Assembly: GCA_001803205.1 (NCBI GenBank)
Contig: MHBE01000048.1
Coordinates: forward strand, 1 to 64,000
Reading direction: 5' to 3'
Length of the DNA: 64,000 nucleotides
DNA from: Lentisphaerae bacterium GWF2_38_69
Lineage (GTDB): Bacteria > Verrucomicrobiota > Lentisphaeria > Victivallales > GWF2-38-69
Below the pieces are notes generated by a model. The model saw nothing but the letters and a program-made list of their open reading frames with translations, did not search any database and was not told the DNA's origin. Both the position numbers and the translations under genes were made by a program. Of the stretch, positions 33,798 through 54,209 are shown piece by piece. The stretch's first letter is position 1. Each line of letters opens with the position of its first letter.

Positions 33798-34205
33798 ATG
33801 CAGATAAATGAAATTTTCTCAATTGAAGGTGAAGTCAGGGATAACGAATTGGACATCCAGGGAATAGTAAATAATGCAAACTACTTTATTTTTTTCGCGC
33901 ATGCCAGGCATAAGCATCTCAAAGCCCTAGGTCTAGATTTTGCAAAAACACATGATGAAGGTCACGACCTGGTGCTTGCTGAAGCTACAATCAAATTCAG
34001 AGCGCCTCTAAGATCAGGTGACTTATATACTGTTACATCAAAGTTAGTTCCGCAGGGAAAAATCCGCGCAATCATGGAACAGGAAGTATTACGCAAATCC
34101 GATGGCAAAATATGCTGTCTTGGCACTTTTACTATTACTTCAATTTCAGGAAAAACAGGCCGTCCCGAATTCCCTGTTTGCTTGAAACAATTGCTGGGTA
34201 TATAA
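33798..34205 (+). CDS. YbgC/FadM-like hotdog thioesterase
   Basis: DNELDIQGIVNNANYFIFFAHARH hotdog motif. Confidence 0.82.
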   Translation: MQINEIFSIEGEVRDNELDIQGIVNNANYFIFFAHARHKHLKALGLDFAKTHDEGHDLVLAEATIKFRAPLRSGDLYTVTSKLVPQGKIRAIMEQEVLRKSDGKICCLGTFTITSISGKTGRPEFPVCLKQLLGI

Positions 34206-34395
34206 AATTCCCCGCCAGAAAAGGATTGCTGTCTTTGTTATACAATGATTCAATAAAAATAGTGTTTATTGGAAATTTTTTCTTAGCTAGGCTGTCTTGA
34301 TACTCACTCAGGAACCTTAATTCTTTTCCATAGAGTTGAGCGCGTAGCGAAGTACCGAGAAGTCGCTTGATTAGACATTTTTAAAGCAAAAAAAA

Positions 34396-34410
34396 GAGAA
34401 TGTCGTGAAG
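34396..34410 (-). repeat. 3' arm of 15-bp long-range closing stem
   Basis: Plus-strand gagaatgtcgtgaag is the exact reverse complement of 35410..35424. Confidence 0.9.
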
Positions 34411-35409
34411 GTATTGCTTTGGCAGGATATCCTGTTAATTGCCTGATATTCGGTTTTAGCTTCTGCCACATATTAAAGTTATTTATACTTTAACTGTATA
34501 GCATAGCCTGAAATATCTTATTTTTGATACTATCTTTAAAAAGTATTTCATCTTCGTCCAAAGCTACCATATCATGTTTTATTCGGAAAGTTCTTTCCCT
34601 GGTACTATTTCTGTACACACTCAGGTCACCCTGACGCCCTGATTACCATATTGGGTTTGTTTTGGTGTTTCGGGCTTATCTGATATGCATTCCTGCATCC
34701 AGCAAACTTCATATATTCGCTTAAGTCGCTTCGTCTTATTCCATATATCTCAATATAGAACAGTTTCGGCATTCCATTCGGTTTGTCTAGGCTGCTTGTG
34801 TCTTGAGGTTAGGTTTTATCCTTCTCTGATAACCTTTTCGCATTATCACGCTCTCATGCGCCGTTTTTTCCGTCACATTTAGCTCTTTCCGCAGCTTTTA
34901 CTGCTTCGGCACAACCCTTTTGACAGTTTTTTCTGTCCTGTGCTGTGCAGATCACCACGCCTGAACCTTGGAGTATTTGAAATCAATAAGGTTTACTCAT
35001 TGGGAGTCATGCCATTATCCTGCATTGTCCTGATACTCCGGCATATTAAGTTACCATCTTAAATCTGCCTCAATCTTCCTTCGGGTTTTCCGAACAAAGT
35101 TGTTTAATCCTGGAATTTTTCAGTATATACCTTGGTTATTCTTTATACTGAAATTCTTTAGCCTGAATGCTCCCGAACAGATTTCTCTGCCCCTCCATAT
35201 CTTTTCAGATACTGTTATTTTCACAGTTTTTGCTGTTTTACCCCATGGTTTTTCATGGTTTCAGCATTCATCGGCTTGAAATCTTGAAACTTTCAGTTTT
35301 TCGCAGTTTTCGCTGTTACTCTTATTATTCTGATAAGTTCCCTTTCAGCATCCCTGCTGCTTTCGCAGAGGGCGCTCTTCGATTATATCATACCGTAATT
35401 TCTTACGGG

Positions 35410-35424
35410 CTTCACGACATTCTC
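35410..35424 (-). repeat. 5' arm of 15-bp long-range closing stem
   Basis: Plus-strand cttcacgacattctc, perfect inverted repeat with 34396..34410. Confidence 0.9.
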
Positions 35425-35427
35425 AAA

Positions 35428-35439
35428 TTTTCAAAGAAC
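35428..35439 (-). promoter_or_regulatory. boxA-like antitermination element in ncRNA leader
   Basis: Minus strand GTTCTTTGAAAA, resembling rRNA-leader boxA, 3 nt upstream of the closing stem. Confidence 0.6.
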
Positions 35440-35520
35440 TTTGTTCTTTAACCGCATTTTCAGCTTTCGTTTTGCGTCAGTTGTTTTTTGCGATGAGTTT
35501 TTAAACTGCCAGAAATTTTA

Positions 35521-35529
35521 ATTATAGCA
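35521..35529 (-). promoter_or_regulatory. extended -10 promoter (TGcTATAAT) of the ncRNA
   Basis: Minus strand TTTGCTATAAT in AT-rich context; no clear -35. Confidence 0.65.
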
Positions 35530-35573
35530 AATCAAATTTAAAAAATATTTTTAACTTTTTTTATTTGACCTCA

Positions 35574-35605
35574 TAATAAGGCTGTTTTCGCCTTATTTTT
35601 TATAT
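35574..35605 (+). terminator. hairpin terminator between ppi gene and ncRNA promoter
   Basis: aataaggc tgtttt cgccttatt ttttt. Confidence 0.6.
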
Positions 35606-36237
35606 ATTTTATCTATAACTATCGCATTAACAGGAACATCGCTCATATAGCCAACCGATGTTGTTTTTGAATCTTCAATTTTATCTACTATATCCATACC
35701 TTTTATAACCTTGCCAAAAACAGCATAACCGTATCCCTGTGCAGTAGGCGAGGTGTAGTTGAGAAATGAATTATCTTTTGTATTGATAAAAAATTGCGAA
35801 GTAGCAGAATTCGGATCGCTTGTTCTTGCCATCGCGATAGTACCTTTATCATTCTTAAGTCCGTTGTCAGACTCAATTGCTATAGGCGGGTTTGTTTTCT
35901 TCTGAACCATATCTTTAGTAAATCCGCCTCCTTGAATCATGAAATTCTTTATAACCCTGTGGAAAATTGTTCCAGAATAAAAATCGCTTTTGACATATTG
36001 AAGGAAGTTTTTTACAGTGTTAGGCGCTTTTTCCTGGTTTAATTCAACTTCTATATCTCCGAGGTTAGTCTGAATAACCACTACGGGATTAGGGCTTTTG
36101 TCCGATGTGTCATTTGTTTGCATTGAATTTACCTTATCATTAGTTGTTGTTAGTTTGCTATCAGACTGAGCAGCAAAAAGGCCGCAAAACCCAATAGTCA
36201 GAAAGAATACTAGAATTGAAGCTGTTGATCTCATCAT
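35593..36237 (-). CDS. exported cyclophilin-type peptidylprolyl isomerase
   Basis: Signal peptide; FHRVIKNFMIQGGGF, MARTSDPNSATSQFFIN. Confidence 0.92.
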   Translation of the reverse strand: MMRSTASILVFFLTIGFCGLFAAQSDSKLTTTNDKVNSMQTNDTSDKSPNPVVVIQTNLGDIEVELNQEKAPNTVKNFLQYVKSDFYSGTIFHRVIKNFMIQGGGFTKDMVQKKTNPPIAIESDNGLKNDKGTIAMARTSDPNSATSQFFINTKDNSFLNYTSPTAQGYGYAVFGKVIKGMDIVDKIEDSKTTSVGYMSDVPVNAIVIDKIYKK

Positions 36238-51660: not shown

Positions 51661-52518
51661 TCATTTCTTTTGATCCATTATCTCTTTAATAACACTCATA
51701 TTCCTATTCCTTTTATAGAGAGGCTCATGTAAATTCTCATATACGCTTATAAAGTCTTCAAAGATCTTGATACCTTCTACTTGATAAAAAATACCCAAGA
51801 AAAATGGCTCTTCTGAAAAAGCAAGAGACAAAGCTTTCAACCTATCATTTTTCTGATGTTCTTCAGGAATATATCCAGTGTTATCCTTATACCATTTATG
51901 AGTATTTATCTTATTAAAAGAAACACATGCCTGAAATACATCCACAAGGGCAAAACCCTTATGTAGAATAGCCGCCTTAATGACCTCTTTTGTTTTCTCT
52001 TTATCGCCTACAGAACCTCTAGCTACAAAAGTAGCACCCATTGTTATGGCTAGAGCTACCGGATTAAAGGGAAAAGCAGAAACCCCGGCAGTTTGTATAG
52101 GAGTTTTCATTCCTTGGTTGCTGGTTGGAGAGGCCTGCCCTTTAGTTAAGCCATAGACCATATTATCATGAACAATCACAGTCATATCAGGGTTTCTGCG
52201 AATTGTATGGATGAGATGATTGCCTCCCTCACCATAGATATCTCCGTCTCCGCTCTGGACAATGAGTTTCATATCAGGGTTAGCAGCTTTGATACCAACT
52301 GCTGCCGGCAATGCTCTGCCATGCAGACCGTTAAAATAGTTTACATCATAATATTGAGGGGACTTTGCCGCCTGCCCAATACCTGATACAAAACAGAGGT
52401 TTTCGCTATTTAAATGCAAGTCAGCCAGAACATCGAGCATAATATTGCGAAGTCCATAGTCTCCGCAGCCAGGGCACCATGCCACATCAGTGGTAATATC
52501 AAAAGGTTTAGCATTCAT
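51661..52518 (-). CDS. 2-oxoacid:ferredoxin oxidoreductase beta subunit (TPP-binding)
   Basis: WCPGCGDYGLRN; SGDGDIYGEGGNHLIHTIRRN. Confidence 0.9.
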   Translation of the reverse strand: MNAKPFDITTDVAWCPGCGDYGLRNIMLDVLADLHLNSENLCFVSGIGQAAKSPQYYDVNYFNGLHGRALPAAVGIKAANPDMKLIVQSGDGDIYGEGGNHLIHTIRRNPDMTVIVHDNMVYGLTKGQASPTSNQGMKTPIQTAGVSAFPFNPVALAITMGATFVARGSVGDKEKTKEVIKAAILHKGFALVDVFQACVSFNKINTHKWYKDNTGYIPEEHQKNDRLKALSLAFSEEPFFLGIFYQVEGIKIFEDFISVYENLHEPLYKRNRNMSVIKEIMDQKK

Positions 52519-54209
52519 TATACCACCTCCTTTATTCTGTCGTAAAGTTCGCCAGCAGTAAATTGCAGCCCGTTGTATTTCAAAATGGAGATCGGGATTT
52601 TTATTCCAATCTCATGCTCAAGAAGATTTTTGAATTGAGCAGTCTGATTATTTTCTATCATAATAATTTGTTTTGCTTTTCGGAAAAAATCCGAAGCTTC
52701 GCCTGATATTGGAAAAACCTGTTTAAAATGAAGCAGTGCGCTCTTTTTGCCAAATTTTAAAACAGCTTCTTGGGCTATCGAAAGAATCGATCCCCAGCAA
52801 ACAAACAGTGTTTCATAATCATCGCAGCCGTACAGATCCGGTACTAGAGCAGCCTCCTTAAGCAAGCTGAGCTTCATAAAGCGCTTATTTTTCATTTTAA
52901 GGCTGATTCCGTTGAGGTCTTCAGTTATCCTTCCAGATTCATCATGTTCGTCTGAGTCGACGCAAACTCTGCCTATTCCATAACCTGGAATGCCGCGAGG
53001 AGATAAAACTCCTTGACCTATGTCGTATCTCTTATATCCTTCTGAAGCTTCAATTATATGCTTCTTAGGTGACGGATATAATTTAAATTCAGGTGAGTTG
53101 TAGAAAACATCTGTCAAGTACTGATCTGTCAGTATAATAACAGGAGACTGATATTTATCTGCAATTTCAAAAGCATGTCTGCTTAGTTCATACGCCTGTT
53201 CAAGGGAACCCGGGGCAAAAATAGCTCTTGCAAAAACTCCATGCCCTGCATAGAGACCCAAATTCAAGTCCCCCTGTTCAGTTCTCGTAGGTAATCCTGT
53301 AGCCGGGCCGGGTCTCTGAGCCAAATGAATCACTACAGGAGTTTCAGTCATTCCTGAAAGAGAAACTCCTTCAGTCATCAGAGCAAAACCGCCTCCGGAA
53401 GTTGATACCATTGCTCTGCCGCCCGCATACCATGCGCCAATAGCCATATTAATTGCCGCAATTTCATCTTCAGCCTGTTCTACAACAACTCCTGCTTGTG
53501 TAGCCCACGAAGCCAAAGCTGTGAAAACTCCAGTTCCAGGCGTCATAGGATATGAGAAAATTGAGTCGCATCCTCCAGCTAAAGCGCCAAGAGCAATTGA
53601 TTCAGAACCGGAAAGAAGAATTTCATCTCTTACATTGTTGCTTCTTTTGATTTGAATTTCCATTTCTGAATTTTTAACAATCTTGCGTCCTTCTTCATAA
53701 CCTGCCTCAGCAGCTTTTATATTATTTGATACTATTTGCTCGCCTTTTGGCTCAAAGCGTTTGATTATATGAAGTTTAAGATCTTCTATTTCGGTTCCTA
53801 TGATGCCGCAAACAGTTCCAGTTACAACCATGCTTGAATATATTTTATCGCCAACCGTTAAAGCAATTTCGTTAAAACTTAGATCAAAAATATTTTCATT
53901 ATTTATTACTTTCTTGTCGGCAATCGTCAAAGTATTTGCTGACAAATCATTTTTATACCTTTCATAAGCGTTCAAATCAAAAGGTATGAATATATCAGGC
54001 TCACCATTTTGATTGAATATTCGATCGCCGGATATTCTTATGGTTATAGAATTTGTCCCTCCTCTTACACGGGACATGTATTCTTTCGTTGCAAAAACAT
54101 TGTACCCTGCGTTTTTTATCAATGAAAGAAGTATCGCCTCTGTTGATTGCACGCCAGCTCCTGCTTCACCGGCCAGCATGATAGTAAGTTCATTAAAAAT
54201 ATTTGACAT
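52518..54209 (-). CDS. 2-oxoacid:acceptor oxidoreductase alpha subunit (gamma-alpha fusion)
   Basis: AGEAGAGVQSTEAIL gamma-type N-terminus; YPMTPGTGVFTALA, GQRPGPATGLPTRTEQGDL-like segment. Confidence 0.9.
   Translation of the reverse strand: MSNIFNELTIMLAGEAGAGVQSTEAILLSLIKNAGYNVFATKEYMSRVRGGTNSITIRISGDRIFNQNGEPDIFIPFDLNAYERYKNDLSANTLTIADKKVINNENIFDLSFNEIALTVGDKIYSSMVVTGTVCGIIGTEIEDLKLHIIKRFEPKGEQIVSNNIKAAEAGYEEGRKIVKNSEMEIQIKRSNNVRDEILLSGSESIALGALAGGCDSIFSYPMTPGTGVFTALASWATQAGVVVEQAEDEIAAINMAIGAWYAGGRAMVSTSGGGFALMTEGVSLSGMTETPVVIHLAQRPGPATGLPTRTEQGDLNLGLYAGHGVFARAIFAPGSLEQAYELSRHAFEIADKYQSPVIILTDQYLTDVFYNSPEFKLYPSPKKHIIEASEGYKRYDIGQGVLSPRGIPGYGIGRVCVDSDEHDESGRITEDLNGISLKMKNKRFMKLSLLKEAALVPDLYGCDDYETLFVCWGSILSIAQEAVLKFGKKSALLHFKQVFPISGEASDFFRKAKQIIMIENNQTAQFKNLLEHEIGIKIPISILKYNGLQFTAGELYDRIKEVV

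Follow-up and report, generated by a model that had tools for sequence, protein, structure and literature searches.

A giant structured RNA with a boxA-like element, present as three diverged paralogues in a single Lentisphaerae genome

We found that an intergenic region of Lentisphaerae bacterium GWF2_38_69 encodes a real giant structured RNA, and that selection has acted on a secondary structure that this region has in common with two diverged paralogues located elsewhere in the genome. We put the probability at about 0.68 that the three genes represent a new class of giant structured non-coding RNA that is tethered by Nus factors and acts as a particle or scaffold; its expression, Nus binding and role are inferred.

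Three paralogous loci with a common fold

The window (the whole 64,000-nt stretch of DNA that was analysed) carries genes for a 4HBT thioesterase (33798..34205, plus strand) and a cyclophilin-type peptidyl-prolyl isomerase (35593..36237, minus strand), which are convergent around an RNA region of ~1.3 kb. A preliminary description of this DNA had proposed that the region contains no credible protein and instead encodes a giant structured non-coding RNA with the architecture of an rRNA precursor. Consistent with the first proposal, no minus-strand ORF that reaches into the region exceeds 55 aa; plus-strand ORFs in the region are at most 94 aa and lack an obvious equivalent in the two further copies described below. 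The inferred transcript is ~1.1 kb (34388..35493, minus strand; all RNA features of the window copy below are on this strand), extending from the promoter to a U8 tract, although the start site has not been measured. Within it, 1,029 nt (35424-34396) form a closed unit, whose conserved helices number in the dozens. We also observed a terminator-like hairpin at 35575-35597, between the cyclophilin gene and the RNA promoter, that was flagged on the plus strand; read on the minus strand, it has few U residues after the stem.

Searching the organism's own genome with the window stretch identified two further loci, on contigs C17 (46123-47249, minus strand; L002) and C35 (around 52275-53308, plus strand; L003), each a complete, diverged copy. 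The window copy (C48) is 61% identical to the C17 copy, and the C35 copy is 50-51% identical to either; to judge from their sequences, the copies are as diverged as old paralogues rather than recent hops. All three share the same order of elements: TTGCTA, ~18-19 nt, GTTTAAA or TCTTAAT, a variable leader of ~60 nt, the boxA-like TCTTTGAAAA, GAGRATGTCGTGAA, internal domains with helices in the same order, TTCACGACATYCT and a U-tract. By contrast, their gene neighbourhoods are unrelated, with no gene common to all three. Two covariance models, R1 derived from the P5 domain of the three copies and R2 from a different internal domain (P8-P13), matched exactly these three loci in the genome, with scores of 161-205 bits and 127-148 bits, respectively, and no fourth. 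The paralogues are the decisive new evidence for a giant structured RNA, within the limit that only three sequences are available, all of them paralogues from one metagenome-assembled genome.

For the window copy, the predicted fold of the sequence running from boxA through U8 has an energy of about -300 kcal/mol, and the folding energies of the three copies relative to dinucleotide shuffles correspond to z = -9.2 (window copy), -14.3 and -10.1. For all three copies, the sense strand has a better fold than the antisense strand when each is measured against shuffles; the promoter, boxA and U-tract likewise all indicate the minus strand. The RNAalifold consensus of a sequence-only MAFFT alignment has an energy of -124.3 kcal/mol with 162 pairs, compared with -41.8±4.8 kcal/mol in 60 column shuffles that preserve gaps and conservation, and 64 pairs keep their pairing through double changes, compared with 37.7±6.2 in the same shuffles. 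As a test free of consensus bias, we transferred folds of single copies to another copy: 46-65% of doubly changed pairs still paired, as opposed to 33-39% in a slid control with the partner shifted by 1-4 positions. A structure-aware alignment, which is biased in favour of structure, gave 225 pairs, 105 of them doubly changed. Thus, the proposal of a giant structured RNA with rRNA-precursor-like architecture is supported: the paralogues share the promoter, boxA, closing stem and U-tract, and compensatory change among them is extensive and beyond chance, although expression was not tested.

The hairpins named in the preliminary description are present: CCGTAA-GAAA-TTACGG, CTGC-GAAA-GCAG, TATCT-GAAA-AGATA, TTTCAGTATA/TATACTGAAA and GACAG-A6-CTGTC. 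We catalogued the helices using a variant of the structure-aware alignment (214 pairs, 92 doubly changed); the simple aligner, which we wrote ourselves, favours structure, and the counts that follow are biased accordingly. Hairpin P2 (35393..35408) carries a GNRA loop in each copy (GAAA, GAAA and GCAA), with a different stem in C35 (CCGGA/UCCGG). P3 (35347..35376) is a 13-bp hairpin with double changes in seven pairs, in which only the AGC/GCU ends are kept, and the 11-bp helix P4 (35286..35341) has double changes in five. The multi-branch domain P5 with its inner hairpins (35153..35281) is closed by a 17-bp helix, of which 15, 17 and 14 pairs are formed in the three copies, with four double changes (GAACGCU/AGCGUUC becomes GAAUGCU/AGCAUUC); each inner hairpin has two or three. 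P6 (UUCAGUAUA/UAUACUGAA; 35119..35152) combines five double changes with a strongly conserved 16-nt loop, AAUANCCAA.

The central domain is enclosed by a long-range helix, P7 (34771..35116), whose arms, 35116-35107 and 34782-34771, form 8-10 of 10 pairs in each copy, with two double changes. Inside it are P8 (AUGC..GCAU; 35009..35025), which has a conserved AGGAYAAYG loop, is part of model R2 and replaces AU/UA pairs with GC/CG in C35; P9 (CAAUGAG/CUUAUUG; 34984..35002), with double changes in six of seven pairs; and P11/P12 (GCACAGC/GUUGUGC with inner GACAG/CUGUC; 34909..34948), with six and two, respectively. Further toward the 3' end, a hairpin at 34739..34760 (UUCUAUAU/AUAUGGAA) has four double changes, and a 3'-terminal two-part hairpin (34458..34508), composed of GGCUAUGCU/GGCAGAAGCU and inner GUUAAAG/CUUUAAU, forms all eight outer pairs in every copy, with three and five double changes in its two parts. 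A conserved ACUCNAAAGGUUAUGC-like stretch at 34949-34975 has a predicted pairing that is incomplete in two copies. The stretch may be engaged in a tertiary contact or a pseudoknot, which three sequences cannot resolve; a search for pseudoknots among unpaired columns found nothing convincing.

Promoter, boxA and closing helix

The -35-like element TTGCTA (35525..35530) is invariant in the three paralogues and aligns with TTGATA and TTGCAA of rRNA promoters from two genomes of the same order (G001 and G012). In all three copies it is followed, ~18-19 nt further on, by a -10-like element (GTTTAAA at 35500..35506 in the window copy, TCTTAAT in C17 and C35) that is preceded by a conserved CTGGCA. 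The preliminary description had placed an extended -10, TGcTATAAT, at the upstream site. That element is not conserved in the other copies, and its TATAAT overlaps the conserved TTGCTA; hence, we read the site as a -35.

The boxA-like element that had been reported, GTTCTTTGAAAA (35428..35439), recurs in both paralogues, with TCTTTGAAAA as the part that is invariant. It ends 3 nt ahead of the 5' arm of the closing stem, and lies shortly upstream of that arm in all three copies, which is the feature that marks an rRNA-style boxA transcript. The corresponding sequence in the giant RNA, GTTCTTTGAAAATTTGAGAATG, can be compared with GTTGTTTGAAAATTGAATAG in the rRNA leader of G012; the boxA-like word of rRNA from G001, a member of the same family (ATTTGAGAATTGAAC), is less similar. 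Taken together, the promoter and boxA resemble the rRNA leaders of same-order relatives. The leaders compared are those of relatives because the 16S locus is missing from this genome, so that its own rRNA boxA was not available. The 16S genes of order relatives (L031-L033 and L036) carry ACTCCTACGGGAGGCTGC, the target site of EUB338-IV, which is linked to Lentisphaerae. This suggests a host of the Lentisphaerae type, probably a member of the Lentisphaeria (Victivallales-like).

Two further proposals about the boxA region held only in part. An AAAGAAC/GTTCTTT hairpin over the boxA is present, but is only partially conserved across the copies. The RNA had also been called antiterminated; it does bear a boxA, but "boxA-bearing" is the better description, given that the main documented role of boxA and the Nus complex at E. 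coli rRNA is in co-transcriptional loop formation and folding (PMC4807359, PMC5725501). BoxA-like sites in genomes of the same family are not accompanied by a closing repeat and then a U-tract. Three such sites, in G002, belong to a 135-330-nt repeat that is 84-95% identical between loci L040, L046 and L049 (~1260-1660 of each) and has GTTCTTTGAAAATTTG in the same place. We rejected this repeat as a relative of the giant RNA; apart from a common 16-nt boxA-like word, the two are unrelated by alignment.

The closing helix P1 is formed by GAGAATGTCGTGAAG (35424-35410) and CTTCACGACATTCTC (34410-34396), which are exactly complementary over 15 nt, and is followed by the terminal U8 tract (34388..34395), which is conserved in the three copies. 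As had been proposed for the window copy, a closing stem and then a U-tract are present, and the arrangement recurs in both paralogues, with the U-tract directly after the 3' arm or within a few nucleotides of it in 3/3 copies. Two pairs of P1 show double changes among the copies, and the helix otherwise hardly varies. A 15-bp inverted repeat taken alone is weak evidence, and crude block shuffles yield ~0.3 per 64-kb window by chance. The case for the closing helix therefore consists of the exact match between its arms, its position and no more than two covarying pairs. There is no local hairpin before the U-tract in the window copy, where the 1-kb closing helix is the only stem abutting it.

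Alternative explanations, known large RNAs and distribution

One alternative, which we regard as possible but on balance doubtful, is that the RNA works with protein partners in an OLE-like ribonucleoprotein rather than as an RNA-only particle. The strongly conserved unpaired loops (that of P6, AGGAYAAYG and GAUAACAUC) could be protein sites. Against this, the three neighbourhoods have no gene in common, but a partner could be encoded elsewhere.

An improbable alternative is that the three loci are copies of a mobile element, such as a degenerate self-splicing intron or a transposon RNA. The presence of three scattered copies in one genome and the patchy distribution are suggestive of mobility. 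By contrast, none of the copies lacks a promoter, boxA or U-tract of its own, there is no enzyme gene in or beside any of them, their identity of 50-61% indicates that they are old, and no intron or omega-RNA family matches them. The distribution is narrow: a blastn search of 60 relatives gave only one match, a chance A-rich one, and a 5' pattern allowing up to 3 mismatches gave two weak matches in other genomes among 199 genomes of the class. Model R1 detected no relative in 390 genomes of the phylum and those of the class, giving only weak matches in or overlapping ORFs; a 25.7-bit match in G114 coincides with the beginning of a mutS2-like ORF, and matches of 18-20 bits in G180 and G169 were likewise in or overlapping ORFs. 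Model R2 recovered only the genome's own copies from the 390 phylum genomes and 138 genomes of the order. One pattern scan of 85,462 species, each represented by one genome, gave seven chance matches, none with the 3' arm; five scans of viral contigs gave nothing or chance matches only, phage and plasmid records gave no match, and we found no description of this RNA in the literature searched. Hence, among the genome, viral, phage and plasmid sets searched, which exclude metagenome collections, the family is known from a single genome, possibly as a result of sparse sampling, loss elsewhere or horizontal gain.

Membership of GOLLD, ROOL, OLE or some other catalogued class of large RNA, in a highly diverged form, is also improbable, despite a similar size, a helix-dense and A-rich build, and a function that is similarly unknown. 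No Rfam family matches at gathering level anywhere in the window (1-64000), and low-threshold searches (E up to 5 for the window copy, up to 1 for the other two) gave nothing below E = 0.5 for any copy; sub-threshold matches in the stretch are attributable to chance. The covariance models of GOLLD, ROOL and OLE matched none of the three copies. Genomic context also differs: GOLLD and ROOL are characterised by phage or prophage location near tRNAs, a feature met at none of the copies. There is no tRNA in the 64-kb window or around the other two copies, and no phage genes lie beside the copies, whose neighbours are ordinary cellular genes. The caution expressed in the preliminary description about membership of these classes was thus well placed.

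The likeness to these RNAs is one of size and style only. GOLLD, which forms a homo-14-mer RNA cage, is ~0.8-1 kb (members exceed 800 nt; PMC12286853), with many helices, A-rich loops, no ORF and an unknown function, but the RNA described here differs in having three chromosomal paralogues, an rRNA-style boxA, and a U-tract attached to the closing stem. ROOL, a homo-octamer RNA cage, is also large and ornate and seems to have no protein partner; its solved form has 659 nt, compared with 1,029 nt here, where phage and tRNA context is lacking. The abundance of ROOL can match that of 16S rRNA (PMC12286853), a level that the rRNA-like promoter here would suit. OLE is likewise a large structured bacterial RNA, and differs in that its model gives no match and no gene is common to the neighbourhoods of the three copies.

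The closest architectural parallel is the rRNA precursor, in which the 16S processing stalk has a boxA. The promoter type, a boxA a few nucleotides before the upstream arm, and a long-range stem joining the 5' and 3' ends are all similar, but the RNA enclosed here is not rRNA, and a U-tract directly follows the stem. We can effectively discount a degenerate rRNA operon remnant or other rRNA-derived RNA, notwithstanding these leader features: SSU, LSU and intron models matched no copy (SSU/LSU at E up to 5 for the window copy and up to 1 for the others), and compensatory changes indicate a structure that is maintained, not decaying. A chance origin, in which A-rich intergenic sequence merely lends itself to the drawing of many hairpins, is refuted by the covarying paralogues and energy z-scores below -9, even though single-sequence hairpins are easily found and 15-bp repeats arise in shuffled windows.

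Proposed synthesis and role

Whereas selection on structure and the conservation of the promoter-like and boxA-like elements, closing helix and U-tract are observations, each step of the following pathway is an inference. The rRNA-like promoter would be strong and give rise to an abundant untranslated transcript. Nus factors would bind the boxA, which ends 3 nt short of the 5' arm, and so keep the 5' end tethered to RNA polymerase as it moves along; this follows the model for rRNA, where boxA is close to the upstream stem arm (PMC4807359). When the 3' arm emerged ~1 kb later, it would pair with the 5' arm that had been held. The closing helix may itself be the terminator stem, because no local hairpin lies ahead of the U-tract; release would then be coupled to closure. 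Trimming at the closing stem by an RNase III-like activity is possible, and the mature RNA would serve as a stable scaffold or form a particle, either by itself or in association with protein, with frequent A-rich and GNRA loops that would be suited to A-minor contacts. Such contacts, together with kissing loops, are used by GOLLD and ROOL (PMC12286853).

The absence of shared neighbouring genes suggests a scaffold or particle rather than a local regulator, and a structural particle or scaffold fits best with the absence of common neighbours, the absence of an ORF, and the frequency of A-rich and GNRA loops. An RNA particle or scaffold is therefore the likeliest cellular role, but it is unproven and inferred from anatomy alone. 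We offer only tentatively, as a conjecture more likely wrong than right, a fuller version in which a particle-forming giant RNA is made like rRNA, Nus-tethered and with the closing helix as terminator, such that release requires completed folding, and in which the paralogues could form a mixed particle.

Very few bacterial RNA classes of this size are known, and two of them proved to form cages that consist of RNA alone and exceed the ribosome in size (PMC12286853). A 2017 survey of boxA elements explicitly left out non-coding RNAs (PMC5725501). If our reading is correct, the RNA described here would provide a case outside rRNA for the model in which boxA-Nus loops help distant RNA ends to meet. 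It would also add a further, unrelated class that is apparently non-phage and has three paralogues, which would mean that giant RNAs are more than an oddity of phages.
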